Source of the DNA: Roseburia faecis
GTDB lineage: Bacteria; Bacillota; Clostridia; Lachnospirales; Lachnospiraceae
Length of the DNA: 64,000 nucleotides
Assembly (NCBI RefSeq): GCF_001406815.1
Contig: NZ_CVRR01000093.1
Span: forward strand, 1 to 64,000
Direction: 5' to 3'
In this document: positions 12,282-54,960 of the stretch, piece by piece
How the letters are laid out: each line of letters opens with the position of its first letter
Numbering within the stretch: position 1 is the first letter of the stretch
Position numbers and translations under genes: made by a program
Notes under the pieces: generated by a model
Databases searched by the model: none
What the model saw: only the letters and a program-made list of their open reading frames with translations
What the model was told of the DNA's origin: nothing

Positions 12282-13934
12282 TTATACAATAATTTCCGGT
12301 ATTTCTCCGACAAAGTTATAAATGATTCTGACTTCCTGTACTTTCTGTCCGTCAATTTTCTTGACTTCACTCACCAGAATCTTGCTGATGAGTCGGTTCA
12401 ACACCGCTTCGTCCAGTTCCTCAATGGTTGCATAGCGCCGGATTTCTTTGATGAAGGTGCGGACCTCATTTTCCTGTTCGTCAGAGTGGCGCATCATCAA
12501 CATCAGGTCTTGCAGGCGCTTCTGGTTGGCTTCCTGCTCCTGTTCCAGCGTTGCTGTCAGCTTCATAAAACGCTGCTCAGTCAGGATTCCTTTCGCCTTA
12601 TCGGTATATAGGCTCAGGAACATCCCGTCAATTTCCTGATTCCTGCTTTCCAGCCGCTGACATTCCTTCTGTGTCTGGGAAGCATCTAGCAGATACCGCC
12701 GTTCCATCCGACTGCTCAGCCGCTGATAAAAAGCATCGGCATCTTTGAATGCAGTCTTTGCCAGTTCCTGAATATCTTTCAGCACAAGGTTATATAAATC
12801 TCTGGCTTCAATCTTGTGGCTGGTGCAGGCATTCTTGCCCAGCCGGTTGTAGGTCTAGCAAATATAATACGCCTTATCAATCGGCTCCCGAATCTCGCCG
12901 GTAAAACGGTTCTTTCCGGTTCTTCCAACCTTTTCATACCGCACCTGCATGGATTTTCCACAGGTCGCACAGTAAATGATGCCGTGGAACAGATTGTAAA
13001 AAGGACAGGAATTGCCTTTCATAATAGTTGGTCTACGGTCAATGATTTCCCGTACCTGCTCCCATTCTTCCGGGGATATGATTGCTTCATGGCAATCCTC
13101 GATAATTTCCCAATCCTCACGAGGGATAATGTCATAGGTGTTGGAGCGAATCCCTTTCTGATGTGTCCGGCAGACCAGATGTGCGCCCTTATAAAAAGGG
13201 TTTCGCAGGATATGGCTGATTCTTGCACTTCCCCATGAATAGTAATTCACGTCACATTCTGTGTTGCTCTTTACTCTGGTAATCGGGACTTTATCATCCA
13301 TAAGCTGCTTTGCGATCCGCATACAGCCCCATCCATCCAGCGCCATATCATAGATTTTGCGAATCACCGGCGCAGTTTCCGGGTCAAGGATCAAATGCCC
13401 CTTATCCTCCGGGTCACGCATCAAGCCGAGAGGCGGTTGTCCGCCGCAAAATTTTCCCTGTCTGGAACGGGTCATACGCCCTGCCAGCACCTTTTTGGAA
13501 ATATCCCGGCTGTACATATCGTTCAGGATATTCTTAAAAGGTGTAATGTCCATTTCCTGACGGGTCAGACTGTCCACTCCGTCTGTAATGGCAATATATC
13601 GTACATTGTGCTTTGGAAAAAAGATTTCAATATAGCTGCCAGCTTCAATATAATTTCTGCCCAGTCTGGACAGATCTTTGGTGATGACGCAGCCGATCTT
13701 TCCCGCCTCAATATCAGCAATCATGCGCTGAAAAGAAGGACGGTTGAAGTTACGGCCTGTATAACCGTCATCTACATAATACTCATACTGGAACATCCCG
13801 TTTTTTTCGGCAAAGTCCCGGAGCATAAGTTTCTGGTTGCTGATGCTCATGCTTTCATTATCGCCGCCATCCTCCAGAGAGATACGGCAGTAAAGAGCTG
13901 TGATTTTCTGATTAACTTGTTTTTTCCTGCTCAT
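12282..13934 (-). pseudogene. Large serine recombinase with in-frame amber codon
   Basis: One continuous 550-codon frame is split by TAG at 12857-12855. Before it lie the resolvase domain (ALYCRISLEDGGDNESMSIS with the catalytic Ser in the SIS motif; DLSRLGRNYIEAG), the recombinase domain (SWGSARISHILRNPFYKG) and a zinc-ribbon start (CATCGKSM...YYIC). After it the frame continues at once with TYNRLGKNACTSHKIEARDL, the coiled coil and the C-terminal domain. Homologues typically have Ser here, so one C-to-A change in TCG would give TAG. TnpX/TndX-like enzymes excise and insert elements. Without readthrough the product lacks the last zinc ligand and ~190 residues. Confidence 0.88.
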
Positions 13935-28571: not shown

Positions 28572-28735
28572 AAGAAAGGCTCTGCATAAGCAGAGCCCTT
28601 CTAACATTTTCTTTCGAGGATTAACCTCTAGCCAGATTGTGGTAAATGTCAAACCCTTATAAAGCTCATAAGGCACTGCTCTCTGGCACAACACCTTACT
28701 TTGCCGCTTGGCAGACACTCAAGTTGCCTGTCTTT
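28572..28735 (-). ncRNA. Candidate structured RNA upstream of the PBECR4-like gene
   Basis: The ~165-nt non-coding transcript runs from a strong promoter to a perfect terminator. Visible helices include AGACA/TGTCT, GCC-AAGC-GGC, CCTTAT/ATAAGG, GAGG/CCTC and a long-range GCCAGA/TCTGGC around the third. No ORF with a ribosome site is present. I do not recognise a known riboswitch class in it. Confidence 0.5.
28578..28597 (-). terminator. Terminator of the structured RNA
   Basis: A perfect 8-bp stem GGCTCTGC / GCAGAGCC with a 4-nt loop, then TTTCTT, lies 34 nt before the start codon of the PBECR4-like gene. Confidence 0.8.
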
Positions 28736-28796: not shown

Positions 28797-31169
28797 TTAA
28801 CATTTTTCATTTGCATGCTTTTTCATCTCAATTATCTCGTGAATGTTGGTATTGTACAGCTTATACAAATCCGTATCCTTACTTATCTGATTATCAAACG
28901 GAATCACCACAGAACCACACTTGATAAGTCCCATTCCAGATGCAGTATTGGTTACAAATCTAAGCTGTGCCTCTGATACTCCGATAACCTCCGCCATCTT
29001 GGAACTGTCTGTATTCGCCTGCTTTAAAAGTGCCACAAACTCAGAGTTTGCAAGCATTGTGGTTGCTGTGTAATTCTGCAACAGATCGACTACATTTTGC
29101 GTGATACCGGTACAAAGACCTCCCTGTTTTCTCACTTTCTTCCAGAGCTGCTGCAGATATTTTGCAGAATACTCGGAATTAAGTAAGACATGGAACTCAT
29201 CAATATAGAGCCATGTTGCCTTGCCTCTCTTACCATTCTCAACAATCCTGTTCTGAATGGACTCCATCATGACAAGCATTGTGATAGGACTAAGCTCTGT
29301 ACCTAAGTCCCTGATGCCATATACTGTGAATCTGTTATCCACATCCACATTTGTCTGATGGTTGAAGATGTTAAGTGAACCATTTACAAAAAGCTCCAAT
29401 GACAATGCAATGTCCTTTGCCTCGTCCTCCGGCTGTGCCATAAGGATATCGTAAAAGTCACTCATTACAGGGATATACTTCTCTTTGCTCCTTGCAATGT
29501 CGATATACAGCTTTCTCACACAGCGGTCAATGATTGACTTCTGTCTTGAATTTAAACTGTCTCCGATACACTGCTCACAAAGTCCAAGCATAAACTCGCC
29601 TTTTTCTCTTACCATTCCCTTTGAATCATTCGGGTCAAGGCTCCACACATCCATCTCCAGCGGATTCACATAGTTATCCGTGTAAGTAGACATATTTACT
29701 ACAGTTCCGCCATAAGTCTCAGCAATATCAAAGTATTCGTTCATTGGATCTATGACGATTATCTCATCATCACCCGACAAGAATACGCTGCCCATCTCCA
29801 TCTTGCAGAAAAAAGATTTACCGGAACCCGGCACTCCGAAAACGAATCCATTTCCGTTAATAAGCTTCTTTCTGTTGCCGATATTCACATTCTTGCTGAT
29901 CTGGTTGATGCCATAATAGTTGCCGGTGCTGTCATTAAGCTCCTGCACATTGAATGGCATAAGCACCGCAAGTGACTGGGTAAGAAGTGTACGCATTGTC
30001 TCCACCTGTCTTACTCCAATCGGAAGTGCTGTATTGAGTGCTTCCCTCTGCTTTAAGTAGTGTATATCAATCGTGCAACTGTTACGCTTTCCGATAGTCT
30101 CTACTGTCTCACATACACTCTCAAGCTCCTTCTTGCTTTCTGCCATAAGAATAATAGTTACTCCCACAAAGAAAAGGCACTGGTCATTCTCACGGACATC
30201 ATCCATGATTTCCTCAATCTCCTTTTTCTCCGTTCTCTTGGCATATGAAATTTCCGTAGAAAAATCGTTATTCTTATTACGGACTCTCTGCTGCTTAATG
30301 ATATCCGACTCAATACCAAGGTATTTCTTCTGAAGCACCTTTGTTGTCAGATCCTTTGGCACAGGCACCACATCAATGCTCGTGATGGAATGAACCGGAA
30401 GTGAAGTAATCTCATTGATGAATCTGTCTGATAAACTGCTCGGATACTTTTTGATGAAAAGTGCCTTGCAGAATTTACTCTCATCCTCAAAATGGTCCGG
30501 GAAATATTTCACCATGCCATTGCACAGATCATTTCTAAAATCTGCCCCGACCTTCTTTGCCTTTTTGATATCAAAATCAAAACTGCCCTCATCTCCAAGA
30601 TGATAATAGTCATAGAGCACTTTCAGTCTCTCATTGCCATTAAGTGGCACGATCTCTGCCCCAAGCTCAATGAAAGCCTTGTGTATCGTTGCCTCAAGGG
30701 TTGCAAACTGTGCCTTCGCCTCCTCAAAGTTCTTTCTCTCTATCGTGATCGTCAGGTATCTCTCCTGCTCAATCCCCTGTCTGCCCTCAATAATCTTCTC
30801 CTCAATGATGTCATTGTAGATTCTGCGGTAATTATTGAAGCCATCGTTTTTCTCAGCAATCAGAACCTTATCTCGCAAATCATCCATGTTTTTGTTCTTA
30901 TTGTTGATCGTAATCTTATAATTACAGTCCAGCGAATTTAAGAACTTGCAGTATCTCTCGAAAATGCCGATCTGCTCATCCTCGGTTGCTGTCGTGTAAT
31001 TGATGTCCTGAAAGCGGTAGCATTTGGAATACTTATTTTTGCTTACTTCAAAAATGCCGTTTTCAGCCACCGCCATAATCTCTATGGTTTCCTGAATGGA
31101 TTTAGGTGTCTTATACAAAGGCTCACTCGCCTTCTTTAATAACTTAAATCCGTCTGTAAATAAACCCAT
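28797..31169 (-). CDS. VirB4/TraE-type conjugation ATPase
   Basis: The 790-residue ATPase has Walker A GVPGSGKSFFCKMEMG (about 440-455) and Walker B TWLYIDEFHVLLNSEY (about 640-655), plus the C-terminal arginine-containing TGITQNVVDLLQ stretch. It energises assembly of the type IV secretion channel at the inner face of the membrane. The gene follows prgI, as in Tn1549/Tn916-like ICEs. The length is typical. A hairpin in the prgI-virB4 gap may set expression. Confidence 0.93.
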   Translation of the reverse strand: MGLFTDGFKLLKKASEPLYKTPKSIQETIEIMAVAENGIFEVSKNKYSKCYRFQDINYTTATEDEQIGIFERYCKFLNSLDCNYKITINNKNKNMDDLRDKVLIAEKNDGFNNYRRIYNDIIEEKIIEGRQGIEQERYLTITIERKNFEEAKAQFATLEATIHKAFIELGAEIVPLNGNERLKVLYDYYHLGDEGSFDFDIKKAKKVGADFRNDLCNGMVKYFPDHFEDESKFCKALFIKKYPSSLSDRFINEITSLPVHSITSIDVVPVPKDLTTKVLQKKYLGIESDIIKQQRVRNKNNDFSTEISYAKRTEKKEIEEIMDDVRENDQCLFFVGVTIILMAESKKELESVCETVETIGKRNSCTIDIHYLKQREALNTALPIGVRQVETMRTLLTQSLAVLMPFNVQELNDSTGNYYGINQISKNVNIGNRKKLINGNGFVFGVPGSGKSFFCKMEMGSVFLSGDDEIIVIDPMNEYFDIAETYGGTVVNMSTYTDNYVNPLEMDVWSLDPNDSKGMVREKGEFMLGLCEQCIGDSLNSRQKSIIDRCVRKLYIDIARSKEKYIPVMSDFYDILMAQPEDEAKDIALSLELFVNGSLNIFNHQTNVDVDNRFTVYGIRDLGTELSPITMLVMMESIQNRIVENGKRGKATWLYIDEFHVLLNSEYSAKYLQQLWKKVRKQGGLCTGITQNVVDLLQNYTATTMLANSEFVALLKQANTDSSKMAEVIGVSEAQLRFVTNTASGMGLIKCGSVVIPFDNQISKDTDLYKLYNTNIHEIIEMKKHANEKC

Positions 31170-34718: not shown

Positions 34719-34739
34719 AAGAATCCCTCCTAAAATGAA

Positions 34740-34850
34740 TTGAACAAAGAATGGACAACCCGGAGGGGCAGGTTACTTACCCTATTTGCATAGGACGGCT
34801 GGGCTACCTACCAGCTCTAGTACATTTTTAATGTACATTGCGTTTTTATC
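34740..34850 (-). promoter_or_regulatory. yjdF-motif riboswitch (azaaromatic-responsive)
   Basis: The leader of yjdF contains AGAGCTGGTAGGTAGCCCAG, a CCTATGCAAATAGG hairpin and GGTAAGTAACCTGCCCCTCC, which I recognise as the conserved yjdF-motif core with AGGT/ACCT pairing. The CCCTCC stretch can mask the AGGAGGG ribosome site, which suggests translational control. Position directly before yjdF supports the call. Nothing else is evident in the remaining 34851-34970 gap. Confidence 0.78.
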
Positions 34851-34970
34851 TTTGTATTTATAATCAAGCCATATGGCACGATTAACTTATTCGGTCAATT
34901 CCGATTTGTAAAACACATTCTTTTTACATAGGCACAGTATACCACATTTCCTGTGCCTATGCGATATCAT

Positions 34971-37166
34971 TTAATGCTTCTTCCGATATGAACTCATCTT
35001 CTCCACAGTAACCTCAGGATAGAAGTAAGTAAGAATCGTTGCTTTCGGAACTCCTGCGGCAAGTGCTTTCTTCACTTCTTCCTTTTGCTCCGGTGTATAC
35101 GACCAGTGCAGCATTCGATTTGTGATGGTATCCTCCCATTTAGGCTTTTCCCTCTCAGGATTCCTTACAGGTTTAGCACCAGCACTTCCACTAGAAGCAT
35201 TGGCACTTTCTGTTGCTTCCGACTTCTGCGATTCATCGACATACTCAAGCTCATTTGCCTGTTCCCTGTCAATCTTTGCTTTCTGCTCTGCTTCATCCTG
35301 CATGGAGAATCTTCTGCTTAATTCCGCATCGCCAAGCATCATAAACTGCTCATAGGTAAGAGAATCTATATACACATTCTCTCCCTTATCCTTCAGCTTT
35401 TCATAATACTTAACTGCCTTGTCTGAAAGAATCTCAAATGGCGGACCGATAAGATTATCTGCTCCCCTTATCTGATGAACATAAGGCTCTCCCTTGCCAT
35501 CTGCTGTCTGGTTAAACATCGGATGATTGAATGGTATGAACTTATTGTCCATGATAGGATCAAAACCACGGATAAAGATAATACACTTTTTGTTATCCAG
35601 CTTTCTGACTTCATCGGGTGTGAACAGTTCTCTTCCTAATACATCATAGTTTCTTGAAAAGCTTCCCTGTCTGCCCTTTGTCTCTCCACTTGACTTCTTA
35701 TCAATCGTACCTTTTCCAAGCAGCTCTGACACGTATTTGTGTGTACTCTGCTCATTTCCACCAAGATAGATGAAAGTATCGCAGTTGCCGGGAATTGTCT
35801 CCCAGGTATCTTTAAAAAGTGCCTTTAGCTGGGCAAAGTTCTGAATGATGATAATACTTGAAATCTCACGGCTTCGCATTGTCGATAACAGCGAACAGAA
35901 GTCATCGGGCAATGCGACATTCGCAAATTCATCTAACATAAATGTCACATGGATTGGCAGTCTGCCTCCGCAGTTAAAGTCCGCCTGATAGTACAATTCC
36001 TGAAATATCTGCGTGTAGAGCATACCGATAATAAAGTTATAAGATTTGTCACTATCAGGGATTACACAAAACAGTGCTGTCTTTGTCTCACCATCTCCAT
36101 TGACTCCAATGCCGATATCAGAAAGATTCAGTTCATCCTTGGAGAGTAATCGTAAAACCTGCTTATTCTCAAGAAATGCAAGTCTTGAGTTGGCACTGAT
36201 GATAATGGAACGGACGGTATCTCCTGCACCTCTCATACATTTGTTGTACTGCTTTACTGCCGGATGATTAGCTCCAAGCGGAGAACTTTCCTCTAAAAAC
36301 TTCATACGCACATCCAGCTTTGATGCTTTTCCCTGTTCTGTAACCTCTGCTTCTCCAAGAAGTTTAAGTACTGTCTCAAAGTTTCTCTTTGCCGGCTGTA
36401 CCTCCAGCCACACATAATAAAAGATAGCCTGTAAGAACAATCCTTCCGCCTTTTCCCAGAACGGATCACTTGGTGTCGCTCCCTTTGGTGTCGTATTGCT
36501 GATAAGGTTTGTAATCAGCTTGACCACATCTGTTTCCTCTCTGATATAGGAAAATGGATTGTAACAGTCTGATTTATCCATCTCTAACAGATTTATGACT
36601 TTCACATTATATCCGTTATTCTTTAGCATCTGACCGCAGCTTCTAAGGATTTCTCCCTTTGGATCGGTACAGATAAAGGAACAGTTATGCGGCATCTGCA
36701 TAAGATTCGGCTTTACTTCATAAAATGTTTTTCCTGCTCCGGAACCACCACAGATAAGTATATTTCCATTGAGCTTGAGTCTCCTAAAATCCAGCGACAT
36801 CTTCACATTTTGGCTGAGTATCCGGTTGAAATTCTCATCCTTATCTGCAAGTATCTTGTTGACCTGCTTCGGATTTTCAAATCTTGCCGTACCAAATTCC
36901 TTACCGGGCATATAGTTTCTCTGACTGGTATAATACATGACAATAGCCATCGCATAGATACCTAATGCAATGGCTACTGCTTTTACTGTATTGGAATTGT
37001 AATAGTTGGCAAAGGGAACAGCACATACCTCATTGAATCTGTCCATAAATTCATTAAAGGCAATCCCTTCCGTCCACGCACCATTTATCAGATAACCAAG
37101 ATACCCGGCTAACACTGCACCCACAAGAATGAATATCAGTGAAGGCTTTTTCTTTGTTGTCTGCAT
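34971..37166 (-). CDS. VirD4/PcfC-type coupling protein
   Basis: The 731-residue membrane ATPase has two N-terminal membrane helices (FILVGAVLAGYLGYLI; AVAIALGIYAMAIVMYY), Walker A LICGGSGAGKTFYEVKPN (about 135-152), Walker B HVTFMLDEFANVALPD (about 400-415) and a charged C-terminal tail. It recruits the relaxase-DNA complex to the secretion channel and pumps the strand. PcfB, its usual partner, is the gene just upstream. Confidence 0.94.
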   Translation of the reverse strand: MQTTKKKPSLIFILVGAVLAGYLGYLINGAWTEGIAFNEFMDRFNEVCAVPFANYYNSNTVKAVAIALGIYAMAIVMYYTSQRNYMPGKEFGTARFENPKQVNKILADKDENFNRILSQNVKMSLDFRRLKLNGNILICGGSGAGKTFYEVKPNLMQMPHNCSFICTDPKGEILRSCGQMLKNNGYNVKVINLLEMDKSDCYNPFSYIREETDVVKLITNLISNTTPKGATPSDPFWEKAEGLFLQAIFYYVWLEVQPAKRNFETVLKLLGEAEVTEQGKASKLDVRMKFLEESSPLGANHPAVKQYNKCMRGAGDTVRSIIISANSRLAFLENKQVLRLLSKDELNLSDIGIGVNGDGETKTALFCVIPDSDKSYNFIIGMLYTQIFQELYYQADFNCGGRLPIHVTFMLDEFANVALPDDFCSLLSTMRSREISSIIIIQNFAQLKALFKDTWETIPGNCDTFIYLGGNEQSTHKYVSELLGKGTIDKKSSGETKGRQGSFSRNYDVLGRELFTPDEVRKLDNKKCIIFIRGFDPIMDNKFIPFNHPMFNQTADGKGEPYVHQIRGADNLIGPPFEILSDKAVKYYEKLKDKGENVYIDSLTYEQFMMLGDAELSRRFSMQDEAEQKAKIDREQANELEYVDESQKSEATESANASSGSAGAKPVRNPEREKPKWEDTITNRMLHWSYTPEQKEEVKKALAAGVPKATILTYFYPEVTVEKMSSYRKKH

Positions 37167-39918: not shown

Positions 39919-41361
39919 CTAACGTATCGGCTGTTCTTTTCTGTCTCTTATTGTTTCTTTGTCATACTGCTTCTCTTCTGCCGAAGCTGATACAGTAAGT
40001 TCCTTCCATATTGATCTTCCAAGGCTAAGTTCCTTTGATACCGCCCGTTCTGCCTTACAGTCCTGTGCATACTTGCTCTCATATTTCTTTCTAAGACTCT
40101 CGACCTCTTCCACACTGTATCCCTGTGCTAAAAGTTCAGTGTTAAGCCTTTCCCATGCATTGTGCTCATCTTCAAAGAAGGTATCCCCACTCTGATAACA
40201 CGATTCCGCATCATTAAGCTCCCGGATCTGTTCAGCCTTGTCAAAAATATCTTTGAATCTTTCCTTAGCCTTATAGGTCTTACTCTTTTCCTTTGATGCT
40301 TCTTTCTTCTTATCCGTCAGATTATCAAGTACCGAAACAAGTTCTTCCGCACTCTCAATCTTATGCCTTACCAGAAATAGATACTGCTCCTGCAGCTTAT
40401 GCATCTTTCGGATATCATCCCTATACTTCCATACCTGACTGTATGGCTTCTTTTTCAGCTTTCCAATCCGGTAAAGCTTTGCATAATATCTTTTCTGCAA
40501 GCCTGACATCTTCGCCCTGCGGTATCTTTTGACATAGCACTTTACTATCGCTGCCTGTTTTTCCTCATTCTGTGACTGGTAAAAAGATAAATCTTCCTTA
40601 GCAATACGCTCCACAATAGCTTCCTGTGAATAATTCTCGCCAAGAGTCTTACATCTTCTGAATCTTGTCATCCCCTGTGGTCTGACTGCCAGATACTTTC
40701 CCTGCTTGACCTCATATCCTTTTTCCGACAGCAGTTCCAGAAATCCTCTGAAATCATTTGCCTGTAAAATGCAGGCATCCAAATCTCTTTTTATCATATC
40801 TGCCCACACAAAGCTGCCTTCACGATATTCGCTCCAATCCTTATAATTCTCGTGCTGTTTCTCTTTGCTGCCATCCTCCACATCTATAATGGAAAGACCA
40901 TACTCCTGACACAGCTTATTGGTAATCGGCTGGATATACTTTGCCCAGTCACCTTTCTCGTAGCGATACTTTTTCCCATCCACAAAGCTTACACTGTTAA
41001 ATACAATGTGTGAATGAACATGGTCTGTATTATCATGAACCACAAATACCGCTTCATAGGCATCGCCAAGATATTCTGCTACAAACTTCTGTGTTATCTC
41101 AAAAGCCCTGTCCGGTTCCACCTCATCCTCTTTGAAGGAAAGAATGATGTGATACCCCTGTCGCTTGTCTGTTTTTCCAAACTGCTTCTTTGTATCCATC
41201 ATCTGTTCAAAAGCCATATCTGCCTGACAGTTAACAGCTCCCACAAGTCTTCCTCTCTGAGTTTTCTCAGGATTCATCACATAATCCAGTGCCCGTTTCA
41301 AATGCCTTGCATGAAAAGAATTCCCGCTGTCCTTCATGTGAAGTATCTTACTGATTGCCAA
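39919..41361 (-). CDS. MOBP-type relaxase (MobA/VirD2 family)
   Basis: The 480-residue relaxase has the nicking domain: an early region with a catalytic Tyr candidate in RALDYVMNPEKTQRG, and the metal-binding HDNTDHVHSHIVFNSV (H-x-D-x-x-H-x-H, motif III, about residues 108-123). A helical, basic C-terminus follows. It nicks oriT and stays on the 5' end of the strand sent through the channel. The start overlaps mobC by 14 nt. The nick site is probably in the gap at 42207-42360. Confidence 0.9.
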   Translation of the reverse strand: MAISKILHMKDSGNSFHARHLKRALDYVMNPEKTQRGRLVGAVNCQADMAFEQMMDTKKQFGKTDKRQGYHIILSFKEDEVEPDRAFEITQKFVAEYLGDAYEAVFVVHDNTDHVHSHIVFNSVSFVDGKKYRYEKGDWAKYIQPITNKLCQEYGLSIIDVEDGSKEKQHENYKDWSEYREGSFVWADMIKRDLDACILQANDFRGFLELLSEKGYEVKQGKYLAVRPQGMTRFRRCKTLGENYSQEAIVERIAKEDLSFYQSQNEEKQAAIVKCYVKRYRRAKMSGLQKRYYAKLYRIGKLKKKPYSQVWKYRDDIRKMHKLQEQYLFLVRHKIESAEELVSVLDNLTDKKKEASKEKSKTYKAKERFKDIFDKAEQIRELNDAESCYQSGDTFFEDEHNAWERLNTELLAQGYSVEEVESLRKKYESKYAQDCKAERAVSKELSLGRSIWKELTVSASAEEKQYDKETIRDRKEQPIR

Positions 41362-52113: not shown

Positions 52114-52560
52114 TCAGTCTCCTTTCGACATCCATCCCATTGCAAGTCCTGCAACATCTGCATCGTCCATAACATCTTCTGTAGGTTCTAGTGCTTCACT
52201 ATTGGCTGCCTGCATTATTACCGGCTGACCAACATTCATCCCGGATATCACTCCGCCTAACAGCCTTATGACCTCTTTCCTAGCCTCATTGGTTGCTGCT
52301 TCAATGACTTCTTCCTTAATGTCATCAATATCTTCTGACCGGATATATTCAGCCCTCTCTTTTTCTTTCTTCTTGATAACAAAAGTTTCTTTTCCATAAT
52401 TATCAATGTAGAACTGAATCGCATCTATGATGAACTGATTCTTAGATTTGAAAATCTTCGGATCAAGGTTCTGAATCACATCATTGATTTTCACATGCTG
52501 AGGATTGCTCATGTTAAGGCGGACAGAAGTTTTTACTTCATATTCAAGTCTTCTTCCCAT
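52114..52560 (-). CDS. ParR-like DNA-binding adaptor
   Basis: The ~148-residue protein has a ribbon-helix-helix-type N-terminus (TSVRLNMSNPQHVKINDVIQ then KSKNQFIIDAIQFYIDNYG) and a long acidic C-terminal part with a conserved GGVISGM patch. This is the layout of centromere-binding partners of ParM-type filaments. The start at 52560 is six bases after AGGAGG. It follows the ParM-like gene by 11 nt, the standard order parM-parR. Confidence 0.75.
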   Translation of the reverse strand: MGRRLEYEVKTSVRLNMSNPQHVKINDVIQNLDPKIFKSKNQFIIDAIQFYIDNYGKETFVIKKKEKERAEYIRSEDIDDIKEEVIEAATNEARKEVIRLLGGVISGMNVGQPVIMQAANSEALEPTEDVMDDADVAGLAMGWMSKGD

Positions 52561-52571
52561 CATCTGCCTCC

Positions 52572-53492
52572 TTATGATAATCGCTTAGTGCTTTTAAGTC
52601 CCATTGTGGCAAGCTGCTCATATCCTCTTGCATTTGCCTTTACATCAAGGTTATAGGAAATGTTCTTAGCATCATGACTACCAAAATTCTTCATCACAAC
52701 TGCCCCGCCACCGACAAATACAATCGGTGTAGTCTTTAAGTTATACCCAAACTCACGGATTGAGTTATATACCTTATCAACAAAATCCTCTATCTCTGCC
52801 TTGATAATGGCAAAGTATTCATCATCAATATCTGACCTGCCATATCGCATGATGTTCTGTATCTCTGACTCGTCTACCTCTCCGTTAAGCTGTCTTACAC
52901 ACTGTTCATTGATAGAACGCATACAGGTAATAAGACCTTTTGGTATCGTCACACACTTTGATTCATCCGGTGACTTGTTGATTACGGGCATAATGTCGAT
53001 TGTCCAGCTACCGATATCTACTATCAGCGTTTTCTTTGCCATTGTAGGAATCTTGTCCACTACTGCTGCATAACACTGAGGGAATACTGCCACATCATCC
53101 ATTTCAATATAATACGGCTCATTCTCATATTTGAAGCTTACACGCTTATTCTTTGTCAGGTACTTGATAAAATCATTCTTCTCTGCTCCAAACCTTGTAA
53201 GTGGTAGTCCTACGGCAAGGAATACCTTTGCCTCTGCAAGACCTCTTCTTTTAAGTTCCTTAGCAACTGCTGCAAGAGTGAGAAGATAAAAGCTGTCATC
53301 TTCGACCTTTGTATCCTTTACTTCCTGCCTCACAGTTCCAACCTTATAGAACTTTCCTTCATACTCAAGTACATCGCCGAAAAGCGCCGGAGTTGTTGTA
53401 ATCTCCTTAACACCTGTGACAAATACCTGAGAGATTGTTTTCATCATTGACCAGCCATGATCAATGCCGATTACTTCTAACTTGTTATTCAT
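52572..53492 (-). CDS. ParM/StbA-like actin ATPase
   Basis: The start at 53492 (AAAGGAGTGAAAGG upstream) gives ~306 residues of actin/Hsp70 fold: phosphate-1 loop VIGIDHGWSMMKT, phosphate-2 TLIVDIGSWTIDIMPV (about 165-180) and adenosine motif TTPIVFVGGGAVVMKNFG (about 270-287). ParM filaments push plasmid copies apart when bound to ParR at a centromere. In an ICE the pair would stabilise the circular form after excision. A centromere array has not been located with certainty. Confidence 0.88.
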   Translation of the reverse strand: MNNKLEVIGIDHGWSMMKTISQVFVTGVKEITTTPALFGDVLEYEGKFYKVGTVRQEVKDTKVEDDSFYLLTLAAVAKELKRRGLAEAKVFLAVGLPLTRFGAEKNDFIKYLTKNKRVSFKYENEPYYIEMDDVAVFPQCYAAVVDKIPTMAKKTLIVDIGSWTIDIMPVINKSPDESKCVTIPKGLITCMRSINEQCVRQLNGEVDESEIQNIMRYGRSDIDDEYFAIIKAEIEDFVDKVYNSIREFGYNLKTTPIVFVGGGAVVMKNFGSHDAKNISYNLDVKANARGYEQLATMGLKSTKRLS

Positions 53493-53550
53493 GTTCCTTT
53501 CACTCCTTTTCTGTATTGTCTGCATTATTGTTTTGCAAAATTTCATATAA

Positions 53551-53730
53551 TTACCCACACCCTTTCAAGTGCTCGGTTTTGTCAGATGCAGGAATATCAT
53601 CTGACCTGCCATAAAAATGCTTTCTCATTAATTCCTCATACAGTTCATCACTCTCTGCCTTAACTTTCATAAGACAGTAGAGAACCACTGTACTAATAAT
53701 GATTACGAACCAAATTAACACCTTGCCCAT
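53551..53730 (-). CDS. Small single-span membrane protein
   Basis: The start at 53730 follows GAGAGGAGTGG and gives 59 residues: one membrane helix (VLIWFVIIISTVVLYCLM) and a charged cytoplasmic tail (KAESDELYEELMRKHFYG). It is the first gene of the ICE operon, right behind the terminator-like leader at 53755-53807. No family is assigned. Confidence 0.65.
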   Translation of the reverse strand: MGKVLIWFVIIISTVVLYCLMKVKAESDELYEELMRKHFYGRSDDIPASDKTEHLKGCG

Positions 53731-53754: not shown

Positions 53755-53807
53755 GAGGACCAAACCAGCTGATGGAGTATTCCATCTCAAGTGCTAATTT
53801 AGTCCTC
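53755..53807 (-). terminator. Leader terminator T2 before the first ICE gene
   Basis: GAGGACTAAATTAGC pairs with GCTGGTTTGGTCCTC (12 Watson-Crick and 3 G-U pairs), encloses a GATGGA / TCCATC hairpin and is followed by TTTTTATTTG. Its 5' arm is also exactly complementary to the 3' arm of T1 (53957-53968). Confidence 0.75.
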
Positions 53808-53955
53808 ACTAAATGTTTTTGATATAAAATTGTACCTAATCTAAGCACACAGATTCACTCTCAGACTGATTGCGGACATCTGTGATACTGACTTGGATTT
53901 TCGGTTTAATATTGCAGCGCTGCCCTATCTTTACCGCTAAAATGGTATAAAAATA

Positions 53956-54011
53956 AGGACTAAATTAGGCATAACCCCTTGATTTTACTGGGTTTCATCT
54001 AACTTGGTCCT
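53956..54011 (-). terminator. Terminator T1 downstream of metA
   Basis: AGGACCAAGTTAG pairs with CTAATTTAGTCCT (one mismatch, one wobble), encloses an AACCC / GGGTT stem and runs into TTATTTTTAT. It begins 17 nt past the metA stop. Between T1 and T2 a CACAGAT / ATCTGTG stem and promoter-like TACAAT/TATATC sequence are visible. Confidence 0.7.
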
Positions 54012-54027
54012 ATTATAACTCAAACAC

Positions 54028-54960
54028 CTATTTCCCAATGATTTCATCGGTATTGATAAACTCATACGGTGTCTGCTGGTAAACGTAATAATTCAGCCAG
54101 TTTGCATAAAGGATATTTCCATGTGACCGCCACTGCAGCATCGGCCGCTGCGTTGGATCATCATCCGGATAATAATTACACGGAAGCGTGATCGCAAGTC
54201 CCTTCTCCCTGTCACGCTTATATTCACTGTCTAATGTCATCCGGTCATATTCCGGGTGTCCCATCACAAAAATCTGGCTGCCATCCTGATTGATTACCAG
54301 AAAAACCCCCGCCTCTTTTGATTTTGCCAGAATGGTCAGTTCTTCATGCTTTAAAATATCTTCCTCCCGGATCTCGGTATGCCGGGAATGTGGAGCATAA
54401 AAATAATCATCAAATCCGCGTACCATCGGAATCTTGCGATTCATTACATGGTGCCGGAATACCCCGAACATTTTCTGCTTTAGATCATATTTTTGGATTC
54501 CGTAATGATAATAAAGTGCAGCCTGCGCCCCCCAGCACAAATGCAGGGTGGATGTCACATGCTTTTTGGACCACTCCATAATCTCACACACTTCATCCCA
54601 GTAATCGACTTCTTCATATTTCATCTGTTCCACCGGTGCACCGGTAATGATCAGCCCGTCAAAATACTGGTTCTTAATTTCCTGAAACGTCTGATAAAAC
54701 TTGTTCAGGTGGCTCTTTGAAGTATGGGTGGATGCATGGGATGCCGGTGCAAGCAGCGATACGTCTACCTGTAACGGGGTGTTTGACAATGACCGGAAAA
54801 TCTGCAATTCCGTCTCTTCTTTCAGTGGCATCAGGTTCAGAATCACGATATTGATCGGACGAATATCCTGATGCATCGCACGGGACTCATCCATTACGAA
54901 AATATTTTCCTGTTCGAGGATCTCCTTTGCAGGCAGATCACTTTGTGTTCTGATTGGCAT
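54028..54960 (-). CDS. metA: Homoserine O-acyltransferase (MetA)
   Basis: The 310-residue enzyme has the MetA core: [16 protein letters not shown] near the start, nucleophile Cys in [14 protein letters not shown] (about 142), and the His and Glu of [20 protein letters not shown] (about 235-237). It activates homoserine with acetyl- or succinyl-CoA as the first committed step to methionine. Substrate choice cannot be called by eye; Clostridial homologues often use acetyl-CoA. It follows ligA by 8 nt, so the two share a transcript, and it is the chromosomal gene next to the ICE. Confidence 0.93.

Follow-up and report, generated by a model that had tools for sequence, protein, structure and literature searches.

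The 64,000-nucleotide stretch of Roseburia faecis DNA analysed here (the window) belongs to contig C92 of a 3.33 Mb genome in 100 contigs (G000), and contains a border at which the chromosomal gene metA meets an ICE. Four short arms with mutually exclusive pairings lie close to this border. The locus raises the question of which neighbour the arms belong to, whether they form an attenuator and what could choose between their alternative folds.

Four arms on the minus strand

The original prediction named four arms, two hairpins with T-runs and a perfect match between the two inner arms, and all of these are found in the window.

54010-53999, minus strand: arm 1, GGACCAAGTTAG, pairing with arm 2
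53968-53957, minus strand: arm 2, CTAATTTAGTCC, followed by the T-run 53956-53947 and forming the candidate terminator T1 with arm 1
53914..53923, minus strand: palindrome GCAGCGCTGC, between arms 2 and 3
53805-53794, minus strand: arm 3, GGACTAAATTAG
53769-53757, minus strand: arm 4, GCTGGTTTGGTCC, followed by the T-run 53756-53745 and forming the candidate terminator T2 with arm 3

A repeat search returned arms 2 and 3 as a 13-nt pair with 100% complementarity and arms 1 and 4 as a 20-nt pair with 75% complementarity. Helices 1:2 and 3:4 are imperfect (mismatch, bulge, G-U), whereas 2:3 is perfect. The minus-strand RNA folds 4.85 standard deviations better than dinucleotide shuffles (z -4.85; 0/200 equal), and the DNA-level fold of the leader gave z -4.51, again equalled by 0/200 shuffles. 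T-runs follow arms 2 and 4 on the minus strand only; the plus strand carries no such runs, as judged by eye. The imperfect helices are missed by a mechanical terminator scan, which reported no site between 53500 and 54300; its rule accepts loops of up to 8 nt, and both hairpins here are longer-looped and internally structured. A promoter scan of the same interval gave two weak sites, a count not above shuffles. The palindrome (8-10 bp) is kept palindromic in relatives though its centre varies (CAGCGCTG, CGGCGCCG, CGGGCCCG, TGAGCTCA).

Four arms of this kind could be set by a ligand or a ribosome, such that a factor and not the start site of the RNA chooses between 1:2 plus 3:4 and 2:3. Possible factor sites are the conserved loop of hairpin 1:2 (CCAGTAAAATCAAGGGG), the palindrome and a GAGGTGA-like stretch before arm 3. 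Such control is highly improbable, given that the Rfam scan found no match at the gathering score in the window's leader (nor in L096, L101, L120, L014, L115, L070 and L117), that no conserved leader ORF was seen by eye and that, as described below, the start site alone shifts folding in most leaders. The two sub-threshold Rfam matches of the window's leader were both to snoRNA models, and inspection of the stretch between arms 2 and 3 as promoter, leader ORF or protein site found nothing. A known riboswitch, a T-box and the Clostridiales-3 RNA were rejected because the leader has no Rfam match.

The leader is the right end of the element

The arms had been thought to span the point where chromosome and ICE meet. 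The border is instead placed at about 54027-54028, outside arm 1, because the leader recurs beside unrelated genes and metA in nine relatives lacks the arms. It is thus well supported that all four arms lie inside the ICE and constitute its right end, and are not part of the metA operon.

54027..54028, minus strand: putative crossover core GG, where metA joins the right end of the ICE, overlapping the last base of the metA stop codon

The sequence common to other insertions ends near 54027-54028, at most about 20 bp outside a TATAAT box, and in two elements (G002, G343) joining both parts of the interrupted gene restores its reading frame. A search of the interval in 62 genomes of the same genus (own included) gave matches in 10 genomes, two of them of only 23 nt. 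The match in G004 covers 289/291 queried bases (100% as rounded) and its neighbour is an HTH gene, not metA; diverged copies stand beside still other genes in G002, G005, G003 and G007. The metA loci of 9/9 relatives (gene plus 1.5 kb on each side) contain no 12-nt arm, which eliminates an attenuator proper to the metA operon; the stray 7-mer GGACTAA occurs near metA in L131, L135 and L136. In G009, the last 29 metA codons are duplicated about 59 kb from the full gene (C1:1481734-1481820; 1540880-1541809), as if another element had inserted there, and the metA 3' end may be a hot spot.

The own genome holds a second, diverged copy with all four arms on contig C16, which adjoins a stretch 79% identical to the window's VirB4 gene over 632 bases. 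Among 299 genomes of the family (own included), 55 match, many of the matches being limited to 22-30 nt of inner-loop sequence from hairpin 1:2, and a pattern search of the fetched family loci gave further complete four-arm leaders. The leader thus travels with the element, whatever the insertion site, in the manner of an ICE-end insulator of the Tn916 T1 type. A MITE or small transposon of about 250 bp was discarded, since the viewed copies have a host gene outside and element genes inside. The inner loop AACCCAGTAAAATCAAGGG also occurs without arms in other genomes (L012, L013, L121, L124, L125); in L124 one copy sits in a hairpin with a T-run just after a tRNA-like sequence (by eye).

From the right end, the actin-like, relaxase, coupling-protein and VirB4 genes all run leftwards.

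53551..53730, minus strand: first gene of the ICE operon, coding for a 59-aa peptide that by eye looks membrane-like, with an assumed ATG start; no Pfam match
52572..53558, minus strand: second gene, actin-like (ParM/ALP type); PF17989, E 4.6e-12
52114..52563, minus strand: 149-aa protein without a Pfam match, ParR-like in its position only
39919..41361, minus strand: relaxase (MobA/VirD2-like); PF03432, E 9e-38
34971..37166, minus strand: coupling protein (VirD4/TraG type); PF02534, E 2.1e-56
28797..31169, minus strand: VirB4/TraG P-loop type ATPase; PF19044, E 1.2e-14

Within the ICE, a drum RNA (window 28599-28709) occupies the gap that follows the VirB4-like gene, and an azaaromatic (yjdF) riboswitch lies at 34735-34859; in L111 this riboswitch also occurs in the host flank of a right end. 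At 12282-13934 lies a second, stop-split serine recombinase gene (PF00239/PF07508, then PF14287) beside an MFS-like gene; it differs from the recombinase at the element's left end (contig C19).

For the comparative work, 39 distinct loci were tried and 29 leaders fitted; the ten misfits include L110 and L118, which are four-armed by eye. All four arms were recognised by pattern in the 23 of these 29 leaders that were used, 16 of subfamily A and seven of subfamily B. The six left out are near-duplicates (L099, L092), truncated (L008, L103) or without arm 3 (L015, L016).

A promoter split by integration

The TATAAT box next to arm 1 has a partner at the other end of the element.

54012..54017, minus strand: -10 box TATAAT, right-hand half of the predicted circle-junction promoter, abutting arm 1
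G000:C19:18708, on another contig than the window: -35 box TTGACA, left-end half

In G002, the right end breaks into a flavodoxin gene, the rest of which is found at a distance of about 90.5 kb, and in G004 the halves of the HTH gene are about 83.6 kb apart. The far end of the element carries a serine recombinase gene directed outwards (by eye), with an A/T-tract and TTGACA next to the crossover; the own left end, on C19 at 18708, adjoins a 516-aa recombinase (PF00239, PF07508). When the ends are joined at the crossover, TTGACA-N17-TATAAT results in 10/10 elements with both ends found (G000/window, G343, G004, G002, G359, which is strain GAM79, AP018536, as well as G253, G005, G206, G237 and G335), a count that takes the two flanks in G005 as putative parts of one gene. 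The core dinucleotide is putative, and shifting it within the shared bases leaves the joint unchanged except in G335, where the alternative gives a spacing of 16.

Five of the ten elements (G002, G004, G343, G359, G206) have both ends on a single contig; in the other five the ends are on different contigs. Seven of the ten left ends were located without the TTGACA pattern, two through the gene halves (G002, G004) and five through the recombinase (G000, G343, G206, G237, G335); the remaining three (G359, G253, G005) were found by a pattern that includes TTGACA. The left end of G004 was read separately, as the locus named in the joining script gave none. The C-terminal identity of the recombinase to the window-type query is 34% in G206, 33% in G237 and 31% in G335. 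A first left-end pattern, TTTTTTTG..TTGACA-N8-GG, gave only 3 matches in 29 genomes; its core distance of 8 was wrong and should be 6. The pattern TTGACANRNGCAGG occurred at 32 places in 14 genomes, of which 8 were accepted on the basis of an A/T-tract plus a recombinase gene or gene half, L157 and L143 were viewed and rejected, and 22 stand outside the accepted count. Among 30 recombinase loci viewed, the gene is followed by the A/T-tract and TTGACA in 12 (including G000, G343, G206, G237 and G335); L195 is degenerate, with TGGGACA replacing TTGACA, and 17 are without such an end. The A/T-tract behind TTGACA (e.g. AAAAAAATAAAATTTTTTTTG) is alike in the accepted left ends, e.g. L158, L159, L176 and L186, and occupies the position of a promoter UP element in the circle.

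In the integrated state, host DNA occupies the -35 position. At spacings of 16-18, it matches at most 3/6 bases of the box in 27/29 right ends; the best match is 4/6 in the other two (L070, L075). An extended -10 (TGn) is common among the right ends and might allow weak firing in the absence of a -35. The target genes vary, namely the metA 3' end, HTH, flavodoxin, tyrosine integrase, aldo-keto reductase and SpoVA-like genes (flanks by eye). As far as can be seen by eye from the right-end flanks, the ICE family seems to enter sequence coding conserved gene motifs: Fic HPFxD, flavodoxin GFPIWW, HTH WENG, tyrosine integrase HxxRHT and aldo-keto reductase YID. Judged from the sequences, it is well supported that circularisation makes a consensus promoter which integration splits; its activity is predicted.

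Covariation of the candidate terminator helices

The 16 subfamily A leaders were aligned for a covariation analysis, in which the shuffles ignore the kinship of the sequences. In helix 3:4, five pairs have changed on both sides and the covariation score was reached by 0/500 shuffles; a second measure, further pair types, was reached by 58/500. An arm-swap test with 15 leaders (L107, near-identical to L014, was dropped) counted the permutations that pair as well as the native combination. There were 21/5000 for 1:2, 0/5000 for 3:4 and 3189/5000 for the negative control 1:4. The whole-strand minimum-energy fold, a nested hairpin of 1:4 and 2:3, was accordingly rejected as the selected structure, 1:4 being without covariation. 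It is well supported by these patterns that 1:2 and 3:4 covary as helices of candidate inward-reading terminators.

Helix 2:3 behaves differently. Its arm-swap signal is weak (196/5000 as good), and of 192 cells in the alignment 188 are paired; the departures are mostly G-U, with ten one-sided changes against four unpaired cells, and there is no double compensatory change in the 192 cells. On the alignment, 2:3 is a nearly invariant 12-bp match, which is conservation and not covariation. Since it uses the same bases as 1:2 and 3:4, it is mutually exclusive with both. The attenuator logic of the original prediction is hence supported by the covariation of 1:2 and 3:4 together with the near-invariant 2:3 in other ICEs.

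The same data can be read more simply. Helices 1:2 and 3:4 could be ordinary terminators that shut host transcription out of the ICE, 2:3 a by-product of hairpin duplication, and the circle RNA might escape T1 only, or be carried through by a processive antiterminator encoded elsewhere. The similarity of the four arms suggests duplication, the match 2:3 is without double changes, and a terminator of this kind opened by a processive RNA is known from Tn916, where, in the available text, T1 is an insulator opened by canT (PMC11658703). Against a mere by-product stand the lower variability of arms 2 and 3 compared with arms 1 and 4 and the mostly G-U nature of the departures in 2:3. Moreover, arm 2 is a perfect match to arm 1 in three elements that lack arm 3. 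In these (L109, L111, L112), arm 1 and its loop are followed by the perfectly complementary arm 2 CTAACTTGTCCC and a T-run, and GGACTAA does not occur in the next 900 nt (about 620 nt in L109, to the locus end). The folding results given below also bear on this reading, which on balance is unlikely.

Subfamily B and other leaders

The seven subfamily B leaders (L002, L115, L117, L122, L088, L070, L075), some of them next to subtilase-like genes, differ in arm 1 (GTGTCAAG and similar), and an A-rich stretch, without a T-run, follows arm 2. T1 is no terminator in this subfamily. Start dependence of 2:3 was seen in 3/7. An inner copy, AACTTGACACTA, complementary to arm 1, is present in L002 and L115 and in the two ends without arm 3 (L015, L016). 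The right end of G335 (L118) has neither a pairing arm 1 nor a T-run after arm 2 (by eye).

Some related ICEs carry another RNA in place of the four arms. The Clostridiales-3 RNA (RF02942) stands before the actin-like gene, replacing the four-arm leader, in 9 of the 12 loci scanned with Rfam (of 48 related loci). It lies at about 2.2-2.8 kb in each of L048, L049, L062, L066, L074, L078, L083, L085 and L090. The carriers include ICEs with a 99% identical actin-like gene, and the flanks of these loci are unlike the element end described here (by eye). The RNA may be an alternative insulator or antiterminator; a literature search found no text on it.

Three proposed roles of arm 1

The 5' half of arm 1 coincides with two further elements.

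54006..54011, minus strand: discriminator AGGACC, which is the 5' half of arm 1 and the distal part of the recombinase half-site; predicted to be untranscribed from the circle promoter
54005, minus strand: predicted first base of RNA made from the circle promoter, seven bases past TATAAT, at the usual sigma-A spacing

Sigma-A promoters usually start 7 +/- 1 bases after the -10 box, and the 7th base after TATAAT is A in 23/23 leaders examined. Because the start is predicted at this base, the circle RNA would lack the GGACC of arm 1.

The recombinase role is suggested by an inverted copy of the 5' half of arm 1 in the left end, at equal distance from the core. The copy is identical at 8/8 positions in G002, G359 and G005 and at 6 or 7 of 8 in six others; G206 gives 2/8 with the core of the script and aligns if the core is CA (by eye). 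Native pairs agree on average at 6.3/8 positions versus 4.65 between groups (78 pairs), a contrast that is modest because the groups share GGAC-like letters. The caveat of the original prediction, that the arms may be copies of a recombination site, consequently fits arm 1 only. Arms 2 and 3 stay GGACTAAATTAG-like when arm 1 turns GTGTCAAG or TTGTACAAGG and are therefore unlikely to be further recombinase sites.

This bears on the idea that the arms act as DNA, binding the recombinase, a directionality factor or a ParR-like protein at a centromere upstream of the parM-like gene, with the hairpins incidental. The inverted half-site copy and the actin-like gene that follows the leader would suit it. 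It is nonetheless very unlikely, as arms 2 and 3 do not track the recombinase site, the T-runs lie on the inward strand and the covariation of 3:4 is of the base-pair type.

Folding depends on the RNA start

In computed structures of the 16 subfamily A leaders, hairpin energies range from -17 to -27 kcal/mol for T1 and from -21 to -32 kcal/mol for T2. With the RNA starting at the circle start, helix 1:2 falls to -7 to -13 kcal/mol, a loss of 8 to 17 in 16/16 leaders; for the window, T1 amounts to -17.4 kcal/mol with the whole of arm 1 versus -8.8 kcal/mol from the circle start. The shortened 1:2 stem stops about five bases short of the T-run in these models, which should abolish T1.

RNAs ending 6 nt past arm 3 were folded with either start. 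With 30 nt of host flank, 1:2 prevails over 2:3 in 14/16 leaders (not in the window and L104), and from the circle start the probability of 2:3 is 0.77 to 1.0 in 16/16. Scanning the start position gave a median probability of 2:3 of 0.03 at the first base of TATAAT and of 0.96 three bases before the predicted start. In 13/16 leaders, the value is still under 0.5 at base 4 and exceeds 0.8 at base 12, counted from the start of TATAAT. The exceptions are the window and L102, with 0.96 throughout when the host flank is absent, even if arm 1 is whole, and L104 (0.59 to 0.77), which on this model has almost no switch. Shuffling the six letters of the discriminator raised the median probability of 2:3 in read-through RNA from 0.002 to 0.85 (16 leaders), while shuffling the host flank gave 0.06 versus the native 0.002 (16 leaders). 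The folding change thus falls in or next to the untranscribed discriminator in 13/16 leaders, which speaks against 2:3 being a by-product of duplication.

The second step is less uniform. With arm 4 included, the circle RNA at equilibrium prefers T2 in 12/16 leaders, as ordinary terminators would, and read-through in these leaders would therefore need kinetic trapping, in which 2:3 forms first and lasts. Of the other four, L009 flips with arm 4 included, and its discriminator is responsible (shuffled: probability of 2:3 0.93). In L006 the flip is complete only when the RNA begins at the predicted start, and the read-through state is independent of the discriminator letters. L102 prefers 2:3 under every start tried. 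The read-through RNA of the window's whole leader takes the terminator form at starts -40 to -20, a mixed form at -10 and the 2:3 form at -60 and 0. In the models of the window's own copy, the T1 step appears clearly start-dependent and the T2 step ambiguous; the latter again fits two ordinary terminators. Two terminators downstream of the element's own perfect promoter would, however, silence the element, so that some bypass is needed.

Proposed mechanism and its meaning

The locus can be understood as the right end of an ICE that a large serine recombinase mobilises, and two coupled devices at this end would tie the transfer operon to the circle. Through the first, the circle alone would join TTGACA-N17-TATAAT into a promoter firing into the operon. 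The second would act on the RNA. A transcript reading in from the host, e.g. from metA, has the whole of arm 1 and would form 1:2 (T1), leaving arm 3 free to pair with arm 4 (T2). The circle RNA, starting about 5 nt inside arm 1, would be without the lower stem of T1, so that 2:3 could form and T2 would be delayed or prevented. As an outcome, host read-through would be stopped and the element's own transcript would pass.

It is probable, on the strength of the folding models, that a split promoter and a start-sensing attenuator together insulate the integrated transfer operon and open it after excision. Somewhat more tentatively, with chances just short of even, one six-base stretch would hold a triple role, such that the geometry of the joint tells the RNA whether it is circle-born or host-leaked and a widespread ICE family of gut Lachnospiraceae gates its transfer operon without a protein regulator. 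We infer the start site, termination, antitermination and the effect on transfer. A switch appears better supported at T1 than at T2, and better in the relatives than in the window's copy. The suggestion of the original prediction that read-through from ligA-metA is switched is retained in another form: the device is portable and independent of metA, it more likely blocks host read-through than modulates it, and the split promoter, the ON state, had been missed.

ICEs need silence in the chromosome, yet a very long transfer operon has to be on after excision, and the proposed mechanism offers a protein-free rule for this, recognisable in the sequence itself. If true, it would help to explain why ICE insertion beside expressed genes is tolerated. 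It would also provide a signature of Lachnospiraceae ICE ends, with TTGACA marking one end and TATAAT together with arm 1 marking the other, and would point to a function for the Clostridiales-3 RNA and other leaders that precede related operons.

Comparison with known systems

A literature search, with most subscription journals outside its coverage, found no report of an ICE in which a split promoter leads into a start-sensing attenuator. Parts of the arrangement have precedents. Attenuators of the trp type have four arms, with 1:2 plus 3:4 set against 2:3. The leader described here shares the four arms and the same pairing alternatives; unlike in the trp type, no leader peptide was found and the RNA's own 5' end is proposed as the input. 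In IS10 and IS50, RNA from outside carries an upstream arm missing from the element's own transcript, and only the outside RNA forms an inhibitory hairpin. Here, too, the outside RNA alone has the full upstream arm and is predicted to fold the inhibitory hairpin. The read-in protection of IS10/IS50 acts on translation of the transposase, whereas the ICE leader would act on transcription termination and adds a second terminator.

The promoter half has a counterpart in Tn4451/Tn4453, whose circle-junction promoter, according to work by Lyras and Rood in 2000, reportedly drives the recombinase gene tnpX. Both cases involve a large resolvase and a promoter made by circularisation; as in the Tn4451 type, the -35 and -10 boxes lie at opposite ends and reach their proper spacing only in the circle (10/10). 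The Tn4451/Tn4453 promoter reportedly drives tnpX, and the one predicted here is directed into the transfer operon and then the attenuator.

Tn916 is insulated by an end terminator, and canT, an antiterminator RNA working in cis, acts after excision (Wirachman and Grossman 2024, PMC11658703, available portions). As T1 does in Tn916, a candidate terminator at the ICE end would shield the integrated genes from host promoters here, and the circle's own transcript would escape. Two differences emerge from the same portions of that report (PMC11658703). The Tn916 promoter Porf7 is whole and is parted from its operon by integration, whereas here the promoter itself is split at the attachment site. 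Escape in Tn916 relies on a processive cis-acting RNA (a 452-bp fragment), and here it is proposed to follow from the start position of the RNA. Circle-dependent promoters for int are described for ICEKp1 and ICEclc in the accessible text of PMC13023037. Like P3'end of ICEKp1 and Pcir of ICEclc, the predicted promoter of the element described here would reach the gene of the other end only in the circle; stem-loops in the leader lower host-derived RNA in those systems (PMC13023037, same text) and are predicted to do so here. P3'end and Pcir drive int and, in that text, are described at the 3' end and not as two halves (PMC13023037), in contrast to the predicted promoter of the Roseburia element, which is divided between its two ends.
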